In this document: positions 53,048 through 64,000 of the stretch, piece after piece
Layout: each line of letters starts with the position of its first letter
How positions within the stretch are numbered: position 1 is the stretch's first letter
From: Nitrospira sp.
GTDB taxonomy: Bacteria > Nitrospirota > Nitrospiria > Nitrospirales > Nitrospiraceae
Length of the DNA: 64,000 bases
Assembly (NCBI GenBank): GCA_030123565.1
Contig: CP126122.1
Coordinates: 3,672,800-3,736,799, forward strand
Direction of reading: 5' to 3'
Notes under the pieces: generated by a model
Seen by the model: only the letters and a program-made list of their open reading frames with translations
The model's database searches: none
What the model was told of the DNA's origin: nothing
Made by a program: the position numbers and the translations under genes

Positions 53048-54238
53048 TCACGGACTATCGAAGGTCCACAAGATCCCGAGCAACAGCAGATGCTGGTTCG
53101 GCGTCAAGCCGATCACGCCTGGTTGGATCTCCCTTCTGGTAAAAAACCCCCCGCCCGCCCCGGTGGATTCGTCCCATCGGTGCTCAAGCCTCACCATCGT
53201 GTTGGTCCATTTGTAAGGAATCCTGTATTCGACCGTGGACGTGACCGCCTTGACGAATTGCTCCGCTCCCGTCCAGCGGCCGTTCCGGTCCCAATAGAAC
53301 TCCGGCCGGACCGCCAAGGTCCAAGGCCCCGTCACATGCCACCGCGCGACGAGGTTGCCGCCCGTGACGAACGCCCTTGGATTGCCAGGACGCCCGGCAA
53401 TATTCTCGGTCCCGATATCGTAGGACAGGGCCAGCGTCAAGTCGTCGCCTTTCCACTCGACGATATGGTTGGCGTAGAAGCGCCAGAACTCCAGTGCGCT
53501 GTTGGCCTGATCCGGCCCCCCGTACAACGTTTGAGTCAGGCTCAGCCGCGGAGTGGCTCTGTACGCCCATTGCCCGCCGTAGCTCGGCTGATCGTTCGGA
53601 TTCGACAGGTGGTAGTACCCGTTTATAATGAAGGCGGTGAGCGTCAGGTTGTCGGTGACGGGATACTTCGCATTCACGCCGAACATCATGTAGGGGGTAT
53701 TGTCCGCAATCCACGAACGGGTGTAGTTCGCATTGTCCTTGGCATAGAGCGATTCGTAGCCGATCAGGCTGTTGAACAATCCTGCGGTGATCGTGAGACC
53801 CTTCCCGACCGGAGCCAGGTACGACACATTCGCGCGATGGAGGTGTCGCAGCGTGTCCGCCCCGCCGACCTCCCGCTCCCCCTGCAGGAAGGCAAAGTGC
53901 TCGGAATCGTAACCGCCTTGCACGCCGAACTCCATGCCCCAACGAGACGCTTCGGTCATATCCTTGCGGACGTAGGCCAAGGCCATGTTCGGCGCGAACT
54001 CGTTATGCCGCGCCGCCGTCGAGCGACTGCGCCAGAGATGGTTCTCGGGAAAGTTGAAGTTGACCACGTAGCCGAGATCGAGATAGGCGCCGTAGTGCCA
54101 GAGGCTTGCTTCGCCTCCTGTCACCGGCTCGGACTCCGGCACCGTGGTGGGCTCAGCGGCATGGGCCGGTGCAAGCAACGCCCAGAGGAGCACCGCCCGA
54201 CCGAGCCGGTTGGCCCACCCACGCAGGACGGTCTTCAT
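53048..54238 (-). CDS. Outer-membrane beta-barrel protein (BBP2 type), copy 1
   Basis: This encodes 396 residues from ATG 54238 (ATG 54244 also possible). A signal peptide ends near APAHAAE. The mature part is a long series of amphipathic strands (GAYLDLGYVVNFNFPENHLW, GLTITAGLFNSLIGYESLYA, NLTLTAFIINGYYHLS) ending in ILWTFDSP. The pattern fits the BBP2 porin-like family. It lies just downstream of kdpE on the same strand and is strikingly similar to the gene on the other side of the kdp locus at 62921. It may let ions or small solutes across the outer membrane. Confidence 0.85.
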   Translation of the reverse strand: MKTVLRGWANRLGRAVLLWALLAPAHAAEPTTVPESEPVTGGEASLWHYGAYLDLGYVVNFNFPENHLWRSRSTAARHNEFAPNMALAYVRKDMTEASRWGMEFGVQGGYDSEHFAFLQGEREVGGADTLRHLHRANVSYLAPVGKGLTITAGLFNSLIGYESLYAKDNANYTRSWIADNTPYMMFGVNAKYPVTDNLTLTAFIINGYYHLSNPNDQPSYGGQWAYRATPRLSLTQTLYGGPDQANSALEFWRFYANHIVEWKGDDLTLALSYDIGTENIAGRPGNPRAFVTGGNLVARWHVTGPWTLAVRPEFYWDRNGRWTGAEQFVKAVTSTVEYRIPYKWTNTMVRLEHRWDESTGAGGGFFTRREIQPGVIGLTPNQHLLLLGILWTFDSP

Positions 54239-54405
54239 GGCCATGCGGTCCCCTTCACCGGGCTGTACGCCGGATTTCCGTTCCTGTTCACAAGCCAGAC
54301 AAGATACGCAGTTCTTTCCATCCCCACTTTACCTCGTTGGAAATCAGGATGGGATTAAAACAGGATCGGGCGGTATCAAAGACTTGTAAAGATCGGCGAG
54401 CGGGC

Positions 54406-55107
54406 TCATTCGGTCCGGAGGCGATAACCGACGCCCAGTTCCGTCACCAGATAGCGGGGGTGAGCGGGATTGGCCTCCACCTTATTCCTCAGCTGACGCA
54501 TGTAGACGCGCAAATAATGGCCCTCTTCCACGTGCAGCGGGCCCCACACCTCCTTGAGCAATTGGCGGTGTGTCATGACCTTTCCCGCATGCAGGACGAG
54601 GGTCATGAGCAATTTATATTCGATCGGCGTGAGGTGCACCTCCTTCCCCGCCACGACGACCTGTCGTTTCCCGAGGTCCATCGTCAAGTCCCCGAAGGCG
54701 AACAACGATTCGCCGTCGCCGGGTGGTCGAGCCGCATGGCGCAGCGCAGCACGCATCCGGGCCAGCAACTCGTCCACCCCGAACGGCTTCGTCACATAAT
54801 CGTCGGCGCCGAGATCGAGCGCCGCCACCTTCACCTGTTCCTGATCTCTGGCGGACAGGACGAGAATCGGAATCGCCGTCCAGGCCCGGACCTGCCTGAT
54901 CACCTCGGCGCCGTCCATATCGGGGAGACCAAGATCGAGTAGGATGATGTCGGGATTTCTGGAAGCGGCTTGCACCAGTCCTTCCGCCCCGGTCGGCGCC
55001 TCGTACAGCCGATAACCGTGGGAAGGCAAGGTCGCGCGAAGGAACCGCCGGATTTCCGCTTCATCCTCGATGAGCAGGACGGTCACGTCATGGGTCGTTG
55101 ATGGCAT
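54406..55107 (-). CDS. kdpE: Response regulator KdpE
   Basis: This encodes 233 residues. The receiver domain has acidic pocket EDE at 14-16, phospho-acceptor Asp58 (LLDLGLPDMDG), Thr/Ser in VLSARDQ and Lys in YVTKPFG. The winged-helix OmpR-type domain ends with VEEGHYLRVYMRQLRNKVE and YLVTELGVGYRL, typical of KdpE. Phosphorylated by KdpD, it activates the kdpFABC promoter at low potassium. It starts 12 bases after kdpD. Confidence 0.95.
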   Translation of the reverse strand: MPSTTHDVTVLLIEDEAEIRRFLRATLPSHGYRLYEAPTGAEGLVQAASRNPDIILLDLGLPDMDGAEVIRQVRAWTAIPILVLSARDQEQVKVAALDLGADDYVTKPFGVDELLARMRAALRHAARPPGDGESLFAFGDLTMDLGKRQVVVAGKEVHLTPIEYKLLMTLVLHAGKVMTHRQLLKEVWGPLHVEEGHYLRVYMRQLRNKVEANPAHPRYLVTELGVGYRLRTE

Positions 55108-55119
55108 GCTGCGCAGGTC

Positions 55120-57828
55120 CTATGTCGTCACTTGACTACGCTCCGTCGGTTCCGGCTCGACGGTCGGCTGATTCTTCTCGATCGGGAGCGTGAAGCGAAA
55201 GACCGCCCCGCCACCGGATCGGGGCTCAGCCCAAATACGTCCGCCATGGGATTCGACAATCCCCCGACAGATCGTCAATCCCAGTCCGACGCCACCTTCC
55301 CGATCGGGGTGAAGCTGATGGAACTTGTCGAAAATCCGCCGTTCTTCTCCTTGCGGAATGCCGGGACCTCGATCCGCCACCTCCGTCACGATCACCCCAT
55401 CGGTCACCGCCGCCGCCACGTCGATGGGCGTGGCCGGAGGGGAATATTTGGCGGCATTTTCCAGCAAGTTGATCAACACTTGCTCGATCAAGACGCCATC
55501 GACCAGCACCAGAGGGAGATTATCCGGAAAGGTCGTCGAGACCGGGTGACCGACGAGTCGCGATTCCACTCGCGCCAACGCCGTGTCGACCACTTCCTCC
55601 AGCGCGTGCCATTCCTTGCGCAGCTGCATGGCGCCCGCTTCCAATCTGGTCATATCGAGCAGATTCTTCAGCAACCGATCCAATCGTCCGGCCTCGTCGC
55701 TGATGGATCGGATCAATTCCTGCCGGCTCGTTGTTTCCAGTGAGCGATCGTTGTTCAACAGCGCGCTGCTCGCGCCCACGATCGTCGCGAGCGGCGTCCG
55801 GAGGTCATGCGAGACCGAACTCAGGACGGCATTGCGCATCCGTTCTGTTTCCGTCTGTACGTGGGCTTCTTGTGTTGCTTCCGCCAATCGCGCACCTTCT
55901 AACGCCAATGCCATTTGATTCGCGAAGGTCTCGAGAAGATGAAGTTGTTCCGGATCAAGCAGATCCTTGGGGCGAGACGACCGGACCGCCAAGACACCCA
56001 CCGCGCCGTGCGCCCCCACCAACGGCAGATAGAGCGAATCCGACCCCGACAGTGTATTGGTGCCATGGCCGGAGGACTCCTTGTGATCGAAGACCCATTG
56101 TGAGATGCCGGCTTCCTTGGGATCCAGCTCGAAATGAAGCGCATCACCACGATGAAGATGGACCCGCCCGTCCCGATCCGGAAGGAAGACCGCCACCTGA
56201 CAATGAAAGACATCGTGAATATGCCGGGATGCGACGGAGGCCAGCCTGTCCAACCCGCGTTGAGTGACCAGGTCTCGGCTCATCGCGTAGAGCGCGGCGG
56301 TTCGTTGTTCACGAACCCGCGCCGCCTCGGCCTGCTGGCTCTTGTGAGACGCCAACCTGCTGATCAGCAGCGCCACGACAAGCATGACCGCAAAGGTCAG
56401 CAGATACTGCACATCGGAAACGGCGAACGAATAATAGGGAGGAATGAAAAAGAAATCGAAGGCCGCGACGCTCATCAACGAGGCGAGTGCAGAAGGCCCT
56501 CGCCCCCAACGCGTGGCGACGACCACCACTCCGCACAGATACACCATGATGAGGTTGGCCGGACCGAAGTAAGGGAACATGCCCCAACTCAATGCCGTGC
56601 AGGCGATCACCGCGACGGAGGCGTAGCCGTAGTTCCGACGATCACTGGTCCGTTGAAGAAGTCCGGTCATCAGGGGCTTCCCGACGCCGGCCTCACCGGT
56701 CATCACATAGATATCGATGTCACCGCTGCCGCGAACGAGATCGTCTACGACCGAACCGAAGAGCCACTCCTTCCAGCGAGACCGGAGCGGCTTCCCGACG
56801 ATGATTTTCGTGACGTTGCGGCCCCGAGCATAGGCCAGCAGTTGCTGACTCACGTCGTCCCCGGTCAACGTGACCGTCTCCGCGCCCATTTGTTCCGCCA
56901 ACCGCAAGGTCTCCACGCCTCGGCTTCGCTCGAGATCCGACAGGCGCAGATGCTGCGAAGTCTGAACATAGACCGCGATCCATTTGGCATGCAGCCCGAT
57001 GGCCATCTTCCTGGCCGCACGGATCAGCATCGGCCCGCGCGATTTCAGATTCACGCAGACCAGGATGGTTTCCGCCGCCGGCCAAGTGGCGACCACCGCA
57101 TGGTCTCGGCGGTAGACCTCCATCTGTTGATCGACACGTTCAGCCGTCCGGCGCAAAGCCATCTCCCGCAAGGCGATCAGATTGCCTTTCCGGAAAAAAT
57201 GTTTGAGGGCGTGCTGCGCCTGGTCCGGCAGATAGACCTTGCCGTCCTTGAGCCGTTGCAGGAGATCATCCGGCGGAAGATCCACCAATTCGACGTCATC
57301 GGCCTGTTCGAGGATGGAATCCGGCACGGTCTCGCTCACCCGCACGCCGGTGATCTGAGCCACGGCGTCATTGAGCCCTTCGATGTGCTGCACGTTGACG
57401 GTCGTATAGACGTTGATGCCCGCCTGCAGCAGTTCCCTCACATCCTGCCATCGTTTGGGATGTCTGGATCCCGGGGCATTCGTATGGGCCAGTTCATCCA
57501 TCAACAGGAGCCGAGGACGGCGCGTGAGCGCCGCGTCCAAGTCGAAATCACGGAGCGTGGTTCCTCCATACGCCACCGCGCGGGGAGGAAGCGCTGGCAG
57601 TCCCGTAACGAGGGCATCCGTGTCCGCCCGGCCGTGAGTCTCAACCCAGCCGATCATCACGTCGATGCCGTCTTCTTGTTGTTCATGCGCCGCCTGCAGC
57701 ATGGCGTAGGTTTTTCCCACGCCGGCGGTCGCCCCGAAAAAAATCTTCAGTTTGCCCCGCGCCTGCCTATCTTCGTCTTCGCGGATGCGTCGCAACAGGA
57801 CGTCGGGGTCCGGTCTTATGGAGTCCAT
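55120..57828 (-). CDS. kdpD: Potassium sensor histidine kinase KdpD
   Basis: This encodes 902 residues from ATG 57828. The N-terminal KdpD domain has the Walker A GATAGVGKT (32-40). A USP-like domain follows, then four membrane helices (DUF4118, about 395-490) and a GAF domain. HisKA has the phospho-His in SSVSHDLRTPLATIVGA and the ATPase domain DRGPGIPQGEERRIFDKFHQL and GVGLGLTICRGIVESHGG. All domains are complete. It senses potassium limitation in the inner membrane and controls KdpE. It follows kdpC by 89 bases. Confidence 0.96.
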   Translation of the reverse strand: MDSIRPDPDVLLRRIREDEDRQARGKLKIFFGATAGVGKTYAMLQAAHEQQEDGIDVMIGWVETHGRADTDALVTGLPALPPRAVAYGGTTLRDFDLDAALTRRPRLLLMDELAHTNAPGSRHPKRWQDVRELLQAGINVYTTVNVQHIEGLNDAVAQITGVRVSETVPDSILEQADDVELVDLPPDDLLQRLKDGKVYLPDQAQHALKHFFRKGNLIALREMALRRTAERVDQQMEVYRRDHAVVATWPAAETILVCVNLKSRGPMLIRAARKMAIGLHAKWIAVYVQTSQHLRLSDLERSRGVETLRLAEQMGAETVTLTGDDVSQQLLAYARGRNVTKIIVGKPLRSRWKEWLFGSVVDDLVRGSGDIDIYVMTGEAGVGKPLMTGLLQRTSDRRNYGYASVAVIACTALSWGMFPYFGPANLIMVYLCGVVVVATRWGRGPSALASLMSVAAFDFFFIPPYYSFAVSDVQYLLTFAVMLVVALLISRLASHKSQQAEAARVREQRTAALYAMSRDLVTQRGLDRLASVASRHIHDVFHCQVAVFLPDRDGRVHLHRGDALHFELDPKEAGISQWVFDHKESSGHGTNTLSGSDSLYLPLVGAHGAVGVLAVRSSRPKDLLDPEQLHLLETFANQMALALEGARLAEATQEAHVQTETERMRNAVLSSVSHDLRTPLATIVGASSALLNNDRSLETTSRQELIRSISDEAGRLDRLLKNLLDMTRLEAGAMQLRKEWHALEEVVDTALARVESRLVGHPVSTTFPDNLPLVLVDGVLIEQVLINLLENAAKYSPPATPIDVAAAVTDGVIVTEVADRGPGIPQGEERRIFDKFHQLHPDREGGVGLGLTICRGIVESHGGRIWAEPRSGGGAVFRFTLPIEKNQPTVEPEPTERSQVTT

Positions 57829-57917
57829 CTGTCTCCGGATGGTGGGAAGGTATCGGTGATCAGGCCAGCATAATTTTAGGGAAGCGCTCAAAACCCGTCA
57901 ATGTGCTGCCCCGCCGT

Positions 57918-58490
57918 TCACGGTATCCGGTCGAGGGCGTGGTTCAACTCCAGCACAGTGACTCGTCGTTCGCCAAGAAGCCCGAACTGCCGCTCTTCCG
58001 TATGGCTGGTAACGAGCTGTCGCACCGCGGCCTCGTCCAACCCACGCGCCCGCGCGACCCGGTGCACCTGATACTCAGCCGCGGCAGGGCTGATGTGCGG
58101 ATCGAGACCGCTCCCTGAGGCGGTCACCAGATCGACTGGAACCGGTGCGTCGTTGCCGGGATCCGCCGCCTTCAGAGCAGCCACCCTCGTTTTGACGGCT
58201 TCCGTCAGCGCGGGATTGGTGGGGCCGAGATTCGACCCGGACGAGGCGGCGGCATTATAGGGGAACGGAGCGGTCGCGGAAGGGCGCCCCCAAAAATACT
58301 TGGGATCGTCGAAGGGTTGGCCGATCAGCGTGGATCCGACCGGCTTGCCGTCTTTATAGATCAGACTTCCATTGGCCTGATGGGGGAACAGCAGCTGCGC
58401 GATTCCTGTCACGGCCAGCGGATAGGCCACGCCGGTCAGAACCGTCAGAATGAAAAACACCATCAGCGCGGATCGAAGTTGAGCGGCCAT
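57918..58490 (-). CDS. kdpC: Potassium-transporting ATPase subunit KdpC
   Basis: This encodes 190 residues. One N-terminal membrane helix ([22 protein letters not shown]) is followed by the family motifs [22 protein letters not shown] and [18 protein letters not shown], then [22 protein letters not shown]. KdpC is needed for high-affinity ATP binding of the KdpB pump. It lies ten bases after kdpB. Confidence 0.96.
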
Positions 58491-58500
58491 CGTGATCTCC

Positions 58501-60612
58501 TCAGACCAATCCCAGGGCGACCAGGAGCAGGTCTATCAATTTGATTCCGATGAAAGGAACAATAATGCCTCCCAGTCCGTACACCAGCACATTGTGGCGC
58601 AGCAGTAAGGAGGCCTCGATCGGCCGGAACTTGACCCCTCGGAGCGCGAGGGGGATCAATGCGACGATGATTAAAGCATTGAAAATCACTGCCGACAACA
58701 CAGCGCTTTCGGGCGTCGCCAGTCCCATGACGTTCAAGGCCCCAAGCACTGGATAGGTGGTGGCAAACGCGGCCGGAATGATCGCAAAATACTTGGCGAC
58801 ATCGTTGGCGATACTGAAGGTCGTGAGCGCGCCGCGTGTCATGAGGAGCTGCTTGCCTATTTCCACAATCTCGATCAATTTCGTGGGATTGGAATCCAGA
58901 TCGACGAGATTGCCCGCCTCCTTAGCGGCTTGGGTACCGGTGTTCATCGCGACCGCGACATCGGCCTGCGCCAGCGCCGGCGCATCATTGGTGCCGTCTC
59001 CCGTCATGGCCACGAGGCGGCCGCCTGATTGAAGATCACGGATGAGTTTCAATTTGGCTTCGGGAGTCGCTTGCGCGAGAAAATCATCCACGCCGGCCTC
59101 TGCGGCGATCGCGGCCGCCGTTTTCTGATTGTCGCCGGTGATCATCATCGTTCTGATGCCCATGCGGCGCAACTCGGCAAACCGTTCCTTGATGCCTCCC
59201 TTGACCACATCCTTCAAATGAATGACACCGAGCACCGACTTGCCTTCGGCCACGACCAGAGGCGTGCCGCCTTGCGTGGCAATCGTCTCGACCGCATTTC
59301 GTACGGTCGGAGGAAATGACCCGCCTTGTTGGGTTACGTAGTCTTCGATGGCTTCCGCCGCGCCCTTCCTGATCTGTCGGCCATCGAAATCGACACCGCT
59401 CATTCGCGTTTGTGCCGTGAACGGCAGAAAGGTGGCGCCCATCGCATGGATGTCGCGCCCTCTGAGTCCATAGCGCTCCTTTGCCAGAATCACGATGCTG
59501 CGGCCTTCGGGTGTCTCATCGGCAAGCGAGGCCAGCTGAGCCGCATCGGCCACAGATGCTTCCTGCACTCCTTCGGCTGGAATAAATGCCGTGGCCTGCC
59601 GGTTGCCCAGCGTGATCGTTCCCGTCTTGTCTAGAAGCAACACGTCCACATCGCCCGCCGCTTCGACGGCTTTCCCCGACATGGCGATGACGTTCGCCTG
59701 GACCATGCGGTCCATGCCCGCGATACCAATGGCGGACAAGAGCGCGCCGATCGTGGTCGGTATGAGGCAGACCAGCAGGGCCACCAGAACCGTCACCGTA
59801 ATGGGCGCACCCTGCCCCGTGGCATGCACGGAGTAGAGGGAAAAGGGGAGCAAGGTTACGGTCGCCAGCAAAAAGACGACGGTGAGGGCCGCCAACAGAA
59901 TATTGAGGGCGATTTCATTCGGCGTCTTCTGCCGCTTCGCGCCCTCAACCATGGCGATCATGCGGTCGAGAAACGTCTCACCGGCGCTGGCGGTGATCCG
60001 CACCACGAGCCAATCGGACAACACCCGCGTGCCGCCGGTCACGGCGCTCCGGTCACCGGACTCCCTGATCACCGGCGCGCTCTCGCCCGTAACCGCACTC
60101 TCATTGACGGACGCGATCCCCTCGATCACATCGCCATCGCTGGGAATATAATCGCCGGCCTCGACCAGCACGATGTCGCCTTTCTTCAGCAGACTTGCCG
60201 GAACCAGACTATAGACCTCGCCAGGTTTGCCGAGGGCAGCAGGCGCCGCCAGATAGTCTCCCCCGGAGGCCGGTTTTCCGAACCGCTTGGCAGTCAATTC
60301 AGTCCGAGCCCTCCGAAGAGAATCGGCTTGGGCCTTTCCTCTCCCTTCGGCAATCGCTTCGGAAAAGTTCGCGAAGAGCACGGTGAACCAGAGCCACAGC
60401 GAGATGGCGAGGATGAACCAGGTCGGCGCCTCGCCTGTCCCGAACAACGCCTGGAGGAACAGCAGCGACGTGAAGATGCTCCCCACGAAGACGACGAACA
60501 TGACCGGGTTGCGGACCTGAATGCGAGGATCGAGCTTTCGCAGCGAATCCAGCATGGCCTGTCGAACAAGCGGCGGATCGAAGAGCGGTCTGGCTTTCGT
60601 CGATGTCGTCAT
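58501..60612 (-). CDS. kdpB: Potassium-transporting P-type ATPase KdpB
   Basis: This encodes 703 residues. The P-type phosphorylation site is [12 protein letters not shown] with Asp328. The actuator loop has VTGESAPV, and the hinge [22 protein letters not shown]. Membrane helices are in the usual KdpB places. It hydrolyses ATP to drive potassium import through KdpA. The gap to kdpA (159 bases) is unusually long for a kdp operon because an intergenic repeat stands there. Confidence 0.97.
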
Positions 60613-60651
60613 GTGAATCCTCTTCTCGTTCAGACTATAGAAAACATCACA

Positions 60652-60770
60652 CAGGATGCCCCAAAAGCGCCGTTCAGCAAGGCCGCACCACGCTTGTGAA
60701 CGCCGCCGAGACGGTGAGGCGGCAGTGTCTAGCGAGAACGCCGCTGGCGGACTTTTTCAGCATTCTGCAG
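60652..60770. repeat. Diverged copy of the intergenic repeat, between kdpA and kdpB
   Basis: The left end (AGGATGCCCCAAAA, then CAGCAAGGCCGCA) and right end (CGAGAACGCCGCTGGCGG, then TTTTTCAGCATTCTGC) correspond in order to parts of 52923-53047. It also has inner complementary GCCGCC/GGCGGC parts. It stands within the kdp operon, where it may reduce or process read-through. Confidence 0.6.
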
Positions 60771-60771
60771 G

Positions 60772-62577
60772 CTACCGAGCGACCATCAGCAAATGTTCCA
60801 CCACAGGCCCCAATGCCAGGGCCGGAACGAAGGTCAGTGCGCCTACCATGATCACCACCCCGACCAGCAACCCCACAAAAAGCGGCGTATGAGTCGGGAG
60901 CGTACCCAGGCCAGGCGGCACGATCTTTTTTCGCGCCAGTGATCCGGCTAGCGCCAATGTCGGAATCGCCAACCAGAATCTGGAGACCAGCATCGTCAGA
61001 GCACCGGTCAGGTTGTAGAACGGAGTATTGGCATTCAATCCCCCGAAGGCGCTGCCGTTGTTGTTGCCCTGGGAGGTGTAGGCATACAGAATTTCGCTGA
61101 AACCATGCGCGCCCGGATTGAGAATGGACGACGTGCCGGACTCAGTCACAACCGCCACTGCCGTGAACCCAAGGACGATGATGGGCATGATGAGGATCAA
61201 CAGCGCCGCCATCTTCATGTCGTAGGGCTCGATCTTTTTCCCCAGGTATTCCGGGGTCCGGCCTACCATGAGGCCCGCGATGAACACCGCGATGATCGCG
61301 AAAACGAGCATCCCGTAGAGGCCCGAGCCGACCCCGCCCACAATCACCTCGCCGAATTGCATCATGAACAGCGGGACCAAACCGCCGAGTGGTGTGAATG
61401 AATCGTGCATGGAATTCACCGCTCCGGTGGATGTGGCCGTCGTCGCGGTGGCAAAGAGCGCCGAACGGGAGACCCCGAAACGAACTTCCTTTCCTTCCAT
61501 GTTGCCGCCCGGCTGCGTACTCCCGGCTGTCTGCTCGACACCCCACGCAGTCAGGCGTGGATTTCCTGCGGACTCGGCCCAATAGGCTCCCAGAACGAAG
61601 AGGGCCAGCACACTCAGCATCGCAGCGAGGATGGCCCAGCCCTGCCTGGTGTCTCCGACCATTGTTCCGAATGTGTAGGTGAAAGAAGCGGCGATTAGGG
61701 TTTCAGCTAGGATCAGAATGAAATCGGTCAGCGGCGTCGGGCTTTCATAGGGATGGGCGGCATTGGCATTAAAAAATCCGCCGCCGTTGGTTCCGAGGTG
61801 CTTGATGGCCACTTGTGACGCAGCCGGACCGACGGCCAAGGCTTGTTCAGTCCCTATTGTTGATTCGGTCTTGGCGACCCCCTTCTCGTCCAAGACCGGC
61901 TGCCCTGCGGCATCGACTACCGGTCTGTCATAGGTCACGGGCTGAAGGAGAGCGGTCTGGTGAAAAGACCCGAAGGTCTGAACCGTTCCCTGTGAGACGA
62001 GGACCAGCGCGAGAATGGCTGCCAGCGGTAGTAAGATGTACAGGGTGCTGCGGGTCAGATCGACCCAGAAATTGCCGATGGTCGCAGCCGTTCGAGCCGT
62101 TAACCCGCGGATGAGCGCGACCAGCATGGCCATGCCTGTCGCGGCAGAGACGAAGTTCTGGACCGTCAGGCCGAGCATTTGCGTGAGATAACTGAGCGTC
62201 GACTCTCCGGCATAGGCCTGCCAGTTCGTATTGGTGATGAAGCTCGAGGCGGTGTTGAACGCCAGGTCGGGCGCCACCGCCCCGAAAGCCGACGGGTTGA
62301 GCGGCAGAAATCCCTGCAGTCGCTGCAACGCATAGAGTGCGACCAACCCCGTGACATTGAAGAACAACATGGCCACGGCATAGGTCTTCCAATTCATGTC
62401 CTCGGTTGCACGCACGCCGCAGACACGATAGATCAGGCGTTCGAAGGGTCCCATTACCCGATCCATTCCGCAGGCCTGGCCCCTGTAGACACGTGCCATG
62501 TACCAACCCAGCGGCTTGACCAACGCCACCAGGACGAAAAAGAAGAGTCCGATTTGAGCCAACCCGTTGATCGTCAT
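60772..62577 (-). CDS. kdpA: Potassium channel-like subunit KdpA
   Basis: This encodes 601 residues from ATG 62577, which overlaps the stop of kdpF (TAATG). Ten or more membrane helices are present. Selectivity-filter-related motifs include [16 protein letters not shown], the conserved block [20 protein letters not shown], and [13 protein letters not shown]. KdpA binds potassium and passes it toward KdpB. It is complete and similar in length to the E. coli protein. Confidence 0.97.
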
Positions 62578-62666
62578 TAGAACCACTCCGCTTTCAGCAG
62601 CGCGATCATGAGGTACACCAACAACCCCAGTGACAACACTGCACCGAGCACGTACATCGCATTCAT
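62577..62666 (-). CDS. kdpF: KdpF, small stabilising subunit
   Basis: This encodes 29 residues, [20 protein letters not shown] followed by nine more ending KAEWF, a single membrane helix of the KdpF type. GGGGGTG precedes the ATG. The stop overlaps the start of kdpA. KdpF stabilises the KdpABC complex in the inner membrane. Confidence 0.88.
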
Positions 62667-62678
62667 GACCACACCCCC

Positions 62679-62759
62679 TTAGAGTCGGTCCAACGCAGAG
62701 ATGAGCCAGCCAGACAGCAGAAAAAATATGGCGGCGATCGTCAGATAGATGAGATCCAT
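62679..62759 (-). CDS. 26-residue membrane peptide upstream of kdpF
   Basis: This very short gene encodes [20 protein letters not shown] followed by SALDRL, one membrane helix with a charged end. AAGGAG lies seven bases before the ATG, and it ends 12 bases before kdpF. Similar MD-x-x-L-x-L... peptides stand before kdpF in other bacteria, to my knowledge without an assigned function. It is the first gene of the kdp operon and may be a further subunit. Confidence 0.7.
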
Positions 62760-62894
62760 GTGAGTGCTCCTTGCCGGGACATAGAATTTAGCGTGGCGCG
62801 CTTCGCCCGAAACACATATCCGAGCGGTCGCCAACCGTCCCACATCTCTTCACGCTCCTTCCCTTTCACTCCATGCTCAAGGTAACGCGTAGAA

Positions 62895-62915
62895 AGTAAA
62901 AACGGTGTAAAAACT
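62895..62915 (-). promoter_or_regulatory. Candidate KdpE-binding site upstream of the kdp operon
   Basis: The minus strand reads TTTTTACACCGTTTTTAC, a direct repeat of TTTTTAC with eleven-base spacing. It resembles the T-rich TTTATAC/TTTTTACACC box bound by KdpE before the E. coli kdp genes. It lies about 136 bases before the small-peptide start, just after the stop of the beta-barrel gene. Confidence 0.45.
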
Positions 62916-62920
62916 GCTGC

Positions 62921-64000
62921 CTACGGCGAATCCAGCGTCCAGATCAGGCCAAAGATCAGCATGTGCTGTGCCGGCGTCAGGCCGATGACGCCGGGCGCTA
63001 TCTCGTTGCCCTTGAAAAATCCTCCGCCCGCTCCTGTGGACTCGTCGTACCGATATTCCAGACGCATGATCATGTTGGTCCATTTGTAGGGCACCTTGTA
63101 CTCGGTGGTCGTCGTGACCGCCTTGACCAACTGTTCCGCACCGGTCATGAGGCCGTTCCGATCCCAGTAAAACTCCGGCCTCAACGCTACAGCCCAAGGT
63201 CCACCGATATGCCACCGCACGGGAAAGGCCGCCCCCATGTAAAACTGACGGGGGTTGCCCGGAGCCGTGGCATTCTTCTGCGTGCCGATTTGATAGTCAC
63301 CTGCGATGGTCACGTCGTCGTTGACCTTCCATTCCACGATGGAGTCCGAGAAGGACCGCCAGAACTCCAGTGAGGTGTTCGATTGATCGGGGCCGTAATA
63401 GACCGTTTCTTTAAAGGTCCATGAGCCGCTGGGTTTATACGCGACCTGCGCGCCGTAACTCGGAAGATTGTTCGAGTTTTGCAGATGGAAATACTCATTG
63501 ACCACGAACACCGTCCCGGTCCATTGATCGTTAAACGGATAGACTGCATTGGCCCCGAACATCAGATAGGGAGAGTAGTCGGCGATCCAGGCGCGCGTGT
63601 AGTTGGCATTGTCCTTAGCATAGAGTGATTCGTACCCGATCAAGCTGTTGAACAATCCCGCTTGAACAGTCAGGCCGTTCCCGACCGGGGCGAGATAGGA
63701 CACATTCGCACGACCGAAATGCCGCAAGGCATCGGAACCCTGGACGTGCGGCGAATTGGTCCCAAACCCAAACGCGAGGGCGTCCTGTCCGCCATGGACG
63801 AGCAACTCCGCTCCCCATCGTGATTGCTCCGTCGGATCCTTTCGGCCATAGATGCCCGCCATGTTCAGATCCAATTCATTGACGCGCGGCGTTGTGCCAC
63901 GGTTCCGAAACAGATGGTTCTCGGGAAAGTTGAAATTCAACGAGTATCCCAGGTCCACAAATCCGCCATAGTGCCAGTCCGACTGCTGAGTCTTCTCCTG
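62921..64000 (-). CDS. Outer-membrane beta-barrel protein (BBP2 type), copy 2, 5' end outside the window
   Basis: The reading frame is open to the right edge, so the signal peptide and start are missing; 359 codons plus the stop are seen. The sequence parallels copy 1 at 53048 through its length, for example LGYSLNFNFPENHLF, RANVSYLAPVGNGLTVQAGLFNSLIGY, LEFWRSFSDSIVEWK and RPEFYWDRNG, and it also ends TLDSP. It is upstream of the kdp operon on the same strand, with the possible KdpE site just beyond its stop codon. Confidence 0.88.
   Translation of the reverse strand, partial: QEKTQQSDWHYGGFVDLGYSLNFNFPENHLFRNRGTTPRVNELDLNMAGIYGRKDPTEQSRWGAELLVHGGQDALAFGFGTNSPHVQGSDALRHFGRANVSYLAPVGNGLTVQAGLFNSLIGYESLYAKDNANYTRAWIADYSPYLMFGANAVYPFNDQWTGTVFVVNEYFHLQNSNNLPSYGAQVAYKPSGSWTFKETVYYGPDQSNTSLEFWRSFSDSIVEWKVNDDVTIAGDYQIGTQKNATAPGNPRQFYMGAAFPVRWHIGGPWAVALRPEFYWDRNGLMTGAEQLVKAVTTTTEYKVPYKWTNMIMRLEYRYDESTGAGGGFFKGNEIAPGVIGLTPAQHMLIFGLIWTLDSP

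Follow-up and report, generated by a model that had tools for sequence, protein, structure and literature searches.

The Kdp pump, KdpFABC, is described as a heterotetramer from work on E. coli (PMC12629597, PMC6255902); the first of these papers gives KdpF and KdpC an unclear function, probably that of structural chaperones. A third paper (PMC5401905) describes the KdpE site as T-rich and 23 bp long, and cites the kdp operon of Clostridium acetobutylicum under the name kdpZYABCXDE. KdpF (PF09604/TIGR02115), the fourth subunit, is among the described proteins closest to the one presented here: it has ~26-30 residues and one span, adjoins kdpA in the genome, and a stabilising role has been proposed for it. 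Small helices that pack on large membrane proteins are also found in other systems, such as CydX and AcrZ or, on P-type ATPases, MgtR, phospholamban and sarcolipin; the peptide analysed here would be alike to these in its way of working, and no sequence relation to them is claimed.

The window, i.e. the whole stretch of 64,000 nucleotides of Nitrospira sp. DNA under analysis, carries on its - strand, in this order, a BBP2-type porin, a KdpE-like repeat, the peptide ORF, kdpF, kdpA, kdpB, kdpC and then kdpD- and kdpE-like ORFs. The features are as follows:

62896-62911, - strand: KdpE-like direct repeat TTTAC-N6-TTTAC (TTTACACCGTTTTTAC), a likely operator, between the porin stop and the peptide
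62767-62772, - strand: Shine-Dalgarno AAGGAG, 7 nt before the peptide ATG
62679-62759, - strand: peptide of 26 codons, single span, first gene of the kdp operon, from ATG (62759-62757) to stop TAA (62681-62679), identified as an ORF and by conservation
62577-62666, - strand: kdpF (PF09604), 29 residues from the ATG at 62666; an alternative GTG start at 62672 is possible
60772-62577, - strand: kdpA (PF03814, E 1.8e-239 in the window's genome), its ATG sharing one base (62577) with the kdpF stop
58501-60612, - strand: kdpB (E1-E2 ATPase and hydrolase domains)
57918-58490, - strand: kdpC (PF02669)
55120-57891, - strand: kdpD, from a candidate start codon, an ORF named by eye from its sequence
54406-55107, - strand: kdpE, an ORF named by eye from its sequence

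A preliminary description of this DNA had placed a 26-residue membrane peptide at the head of the kdp operon, with a good ribosome binding site and with kdpF 12 bases downstream, and coordinates, length, ribosome binding site and the 12-base spacing all proved exact. The peptide has one hydrophobic stretch, reads as a single-span membrane protein, and is single-copy in the window's own genome. A longer frame opens at GTG 62843, the upstream part of which is without conservation by eye; judged by conservation, the start is ATG 62759. Two similar beta-barrel porins flank the operon on the same strand, one at 62921-64000 (BBP2, PF07642; ending at 62921) and the other at 53048-54244.

Expression signals were then compared over the family. 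Of 173 loci with both ORFs, 168 have ATG as the start codon, 141 have a 4-mer of AAGGAGG ahead of the peptide start (found at 55 of 513 control positions), and 79 have a peptide stop and a kdpF start that overlap by exactly 4 nt (ATGA), with tight spacing in most others. We take the TTTAC-N6-TTTAC pattern to be the KdpE site, in line with the T-rich 23-bp description of PMC5401905. In 51 of 168 loci such a box was found no more than 260 nt upstream of the peptide, where 0.2 would be expected by shuffling; none of the 168 has one between the peptide start and the kdpF end. The same pattern, TTTATACTTTTTTTAC, is present upstream of kdpF in E. coli. Given this placement of the box, the peptide appears to be part of the KdpE-controlled message.

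Is the peptide a real gene? Within the genus, a KdpA search and a peptide search returned the same 12 of 41 genomes, and direct reading of the loci located the peptide in two other KdpA genomes (G043, G045). A weak peptide match in G023 (E 2) and second matches in G003 and G009 were rejected as unrelated longer frames. In 7 independent pairs drawn from 15 family coding sequences, dN/dS was 0.228 for the peptide (47 synonymous and 37 nonsynonymous differences) and 0.367 for kdpF. On the strength of this co-occurrence and of these substitution patterns, the peptide ORF is a gene under purifying selection. The 4-nt overlaps and tight spacing reported above are also what would be seen if translation of the ORF only set up translation of kdpF/kdpA, by coupling or attenuation, the protein itself having no role. 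We consider this very unlikely, since the amino-acid sequence is conserved across phyla, has a dN/dS of 0.23 in the Nitrospira-family pairs above and covaries with KdpA residues (see below), and since in five Nitrospira loci (L018, L019, L023, L027 and L031) a repeat-like sequence of ~200 nt splits the peptide from kdpF while both frames remain intact, so that coupling is not kept. The single-sequence fold of the leader RNA is no better than that of shuffles (z -0.71), and there is no Rfam match at E<=1. The ~200-nt repeat-like sequence has similar ends (CAGGATGC... / ...GCATCCTGC) and recurs between kdp genes in several genomes of the genus. By eye, the kdpA-kdpB gap of the window (60613-60771) looks related to it, but no inverted repeat of at least 14 was found at 60500-60900.

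The preliminary description had proposed conservation upstream of kdpF in other genomes as a check on the peptide and lack of amino-acid conservation between relatives as its refutation. The comparison was made, and the sequence is kept between relatives, in the genus itself as well as in many phyla, adjoining kdpF/kdpA. The starting loci comprised 80 KdpA loci from genome contigs, 25 from annotated plasmids and the loci of the genus, most of which show a one-span peptide ending [DE]-[RK]-L or similar directly before kdpF. An HMM built from 12 Nitrospira-family peptides matched the ORF at the peptide position in 24 of 85 other loci (E<=0.01), and its one other match among 17,727 ORFs was the true peptide of L023, situated outside the interval used for picking. 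A further HMM was trained on 99 peptides, from which the false picks L126 and L130 and the near-duplicates L019, L076 and L091 had first been removed, and was applied to new loci obtained in class- or phylum-wide draws (6 of 296 duplicated training loci and were excluded from the final counts; L302, with no upstream sequence, was left out of the second draw). It matched 174 of 290 further KdpA loci at E<=0.1 (83 of 129 in the first draw and 91 of 161 in the second). All 174 matches lie on the strand of kdpA just upstream of KdpA, and none was found elsewhere in 28,432 six-frame ORFs (15,833 + 12,599).

In the first draw (134 loci, E<=0.1), matches were obtained in alpha (25/30), gamma/beta (18/25), Bacteroidota (12/30), Chloroflexota (24/30) and Planctomycetota (9/19), figures that are not unbiased frequencies because larger searches contributed their best-scoring KdpA loci; in 24 more loci of this draw a clear, divergent relative could be recognised by eye. 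In the second (broader HMM, E<=1), they were obtained in Acidobacteriota (60/76), gamma (13/18), Chloroflexota (15/23), Bacteroidota (9/41) and alpha (2/4). The peptide is not universal, since 62-63 of the 162 second-draw loci have no match to the broader HMM. Members known from a single locus come from Deinococcus, Rhodococcus, Streptomyces, a Listeria innocua plasmid, Bacillus badius, Niallia and Subdoligranulum, and the peptide was not seen at the kdp loci of E. coli, a Listeria monocytogenes record, Enterococcus, Levilactobacillus, Halobacterium and Acinetobacter. The window peptide itself matches the profile, lies upstream of kdpF/kdpA on the same strand, and has D2 together with R86 in KdpA. 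By these searches, the family is not special to the window's genome. On plasmid pMESIL01 of Allomeiothermus silvanus (L129) the order is swapped to kdpF, peptide, kdpA, the peptide overlapping the kdpA start. In two Planctomycetota genomes, KdpA lies in open frames of 1003 (L268, G1097) and 775 (L266, G1043) residues, which greatly exceed the usual length and are possible fusions.

How does the peptide relate to named families? The kdpF product of the window scores 27.2 bits against PF09604 (cut-off 21.2) and also passes the NCBIfam KdpF model TIGR02115. The window peptide has no Pfam match and a sole NCBIfam match of 12.3 bits, far below the cut-off of 33, and none of 16 family members passes a curated cut-off in Pfam or NCBIfam. 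A PHROG identity was rejected, the best match (E 0.0018) being to an unnamed PHROG and obtained with one of the 16 members only. A PDB sequence search with the peptide gave no match, and one with the family alignment gave chance matches to a receptor, which were dismissed. The peptide and KdpF are of equal size, both have one span and they share an operon neighbourhood, and the peptide might on these grounds be taken for a diverged KdpF duplicate with the same site and role. We regard this as extremely improbable: comparison of the two profiles with hhalign returned a probability of 5%, neither the peptide nor 15 aligned relatives match PF09604 or TIGR02115, there being no sequence match either way, the peptide is without the PE-x-F type C-terminal ending of KdpF and has another motif there, and the two co-occur, whereas E. 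coli has KdpF and not the peptide. Their predicted places on KdpA are also separate, as described below.

The family has earlier records. RefSeq entry WP_212667346.1 of Mycetohabitans endofungorum (L037, NZ_CP062169.1), a protein of 34 residues whose gene overlaps kdpF by 4 nt, is named 'potassium ABC transporter ATPase'. The name is wrong in kind for single-span proteins of 26-34 residues with no match to a Pfam or ATP-binding domain, and no curated family model behind it was found. One plasmid record annotates a 41-residue 'hypothetical protein' at the peptide position, and the rhizobial version of the peptide has no annotated feature in the annotated records among the 30 listed of 162 matching Rhizobium records. 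Among openly accessible papers, none naming the family was found, which is weak evidence of absence; the main text of an S. meliloti small-proteome paper, in the portion consulted, does not contain 'kdp'. The kdpZ (orfZ) of C. acetobutylicum, known to us from a citing sentence, is probably this gene: it is a short ORF that precedes kdpA and the presumed kdpF (kdpY), and a clostridial plasmid locus (L136) with a member of the family has the gene order of the kdpZY operon. The suggestion of the preliminary description that the peptide had been overlooked thus has to be qualified for the RefSeq record, the plasmid record and, from what the citing sentence tells, kdpZ.

We next turn to KdpA, on which three features of the window are relevant to the covariation analysis:

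62320-62322, - strand: codon of KdpA Arg86 (E. coli L82), the partner of peptide Asp2 predicted by covariation
62320-62388, - strand: KdpA residues 64-86 (TM2, D1M1), the contact helix predicted from the antiparallel ladder, with helix limits from hydropathy
60949-61011, - strand: KdpA residues 523-543 (TM9, D4M2), the contact helix predicted from the parallel ladder

Firstly, KdpA sequences were compared between loci with the peptide (193) and loci without it (25). The three columns that differ most correspond to E. coli F78 (Tyr in 88% of the former and 16% of the latter), W99 (Pro in 76% and 8%) and L82 (Arg in 88% and 24%). All of them lie where TM2 ends on the outer side or in the linker that leads on to the first pore helix. 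Secondly, mutual information with average-product correction was computed between peptide and KdpA columns, a simple method in which peptide columns 2 and 19 carry a broad background signal. Peptide position 2 and KdpA position 82 (E. coli numbering) rank first of 13,850 pairs over 193 peptide-KdpA pairs, and again first of 13,625 (z 11.6) over 291 loci (effective number 143), where ranks 2-4 are 9/74, 5/483 and 16/495 and rank 6 is 12/490. The covariation set includes 24 loci of the discovery set with peptides assigned by eye; L332 is left out of the 291 loci and is part of the 292-locus counts given below. These five pairs line up as two helix-packing ladders, an antiparallel one with TM2 (sum 83-84, p 0.007) and a parallel one with TM9 (difference 478-479, p 0.003), the p-values deriving from 300 permutations of KdpA columns with the maximum taken over all offsets, a null that does not keep phylogeny. 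Within KdpA, only one strong covariation pair joins TM2 and TM9 (73/499). No strong pair was found between the peptide and KdpF. Over 322 loci, KdpF, taken as a comparison, showed a significant parallel ladder with E. coli KdpA residues 125-148 (D1M2; p 0.007) and an antiparallel one at ~205-225 (p 0.02), the latter without a matching predicted helix; these best ladders of KdpF fall on other parts of KdpA than those of the peptide, which argues further against a KdpF duplicate.

The link between the two sites can be read directly from counts. Over 292 loci, an acid at position 2 goes with Arg in 253 of 254, and its absence with Arg in 3 of 38. The four classes (acid with Arg, acid without, Arg without acid, neither) thus number 253, 1, 3 and 35, and over 188 clusters at 80% identity 163, 1, 3 and 23 (p 2e-25). 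In the held-out set they number 87, 1 (L332, which is out of register), 0 and 11 (Fisher p 9.5e-14). The three loci with Arg and no acid reduce to one (L048), as L174 and L175 do carry an acid (GTG-D and M-E, respectively). Along the 580 branches of the KdpA tree, both sites change on 6, Asp only on 2 (start-codon mispicks that carry the acid) and Arg only on 1. In the second draw, 11 of 63 loci in which no peptide was found keep Arg82: 3 have an Asp peptide missed by the HMM, 3 are second kdpA copies in genomes where the other copy has the peptide, and 5 remain. The profile favours Asp2, and peptides without it are under-detected; this bias is not the source of the Asp-Arg link because KdpA had no part in picking the peptides.

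Second kdpA copies were observed without adjoining kdpF or peptide in L030 (G006), L340 (G653), L433 (G1390) and L434 (G1398), each with the Arg82 patch kept. In all four genomes another kdpA copy has the peptide, which might be shared in trans.

Taken together, the peptide is quite likely to be an accessory fifth Kdp subunit, a single-span protein with its N-terminus outside that would lie on KdpA in the groove between TM2 and TM9, held by an Asp2-Arg86 salt bridge. In this model, the peptide would be translated from the ORF that opens the KdpE-controlled operon, in many species with translation coupled to that of kdpF through the ATGA overlap, and would insert with its N-terminus outside. 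We infer this topology because Asp2 stands at the start, basic residues stand at the end, and the ladders have the directions found: D1M1 rises to the outside and D4M2 descends from it, so that both ladders run as they would for an N-out peptide. In the four-fold fold of KdpA, D1 is adjacent to D4. The peptide would then pack along KdpA between TM2 (D1M1) and TM9 (D4M2), with Asp2 pairing with Arg86 where TM2 approaches the outside, just ahead of the first pore helix. The Asp2-Arg86 contact is deduced from covariation, and the link could be indirect, through a third partner. The solved KdpA chains found comprise 3 distinct sequences of 557 residues, which we read as E. coli KdpA from their length and entries; the peptide may have gone unseen because solved KdpA appears to come from E. 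coli, a Kdp without it.

The preliminary description had offered either a subunit or a regulator of the Kdp complex, a proposal borne out in general terms, and covariation with KdpA favours the former. A regulatory peptide acting on the KdpD sensor or on another membrane partner, and not as a part of the pump, would have parallels, as small membrane peptides regulate sensor kinases and mycobacterial KdpF is discussed in such terms (PMC3618439). We nevertheless judge it unlikely in view of the covariation signal with KdpA, found in a comparison that covered KdpA and KdpF as partners. A fifth subunit would most probably help KdpA to assemble or stay stable within the complex, much as KdpF is proposed to do, or else tune it close to its filter.

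For annotation, the peptide is a family for pipelines to add, together with correction of the misleading RefSeq name. For the pump, the Asp2-Arg86 pair would make the fifth helix testable through a single residue. Combining a channel with a P-type ATPase, KdpFABC is a textbook chimera, and if most Kdp systems carry an extra conserved helix on KdpA, the E. coli model is incomplete, and work on Kdp in pathogens, symbionts and soil bacteria should cover the peptide gene. More tentatively, and with more doubt than confidence on our part, most bacteria beyond a few groups such as Enterobacteriaceae may have a five-subunit pump, the four-subunit form of E. coli being derived by loss of the helix along with the Tyr78/Arg82/Pro99-type patch that precedes the first pore helix of KdpA. 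If this were true, the known structures and kinetics would describe a derived four-subunit form.
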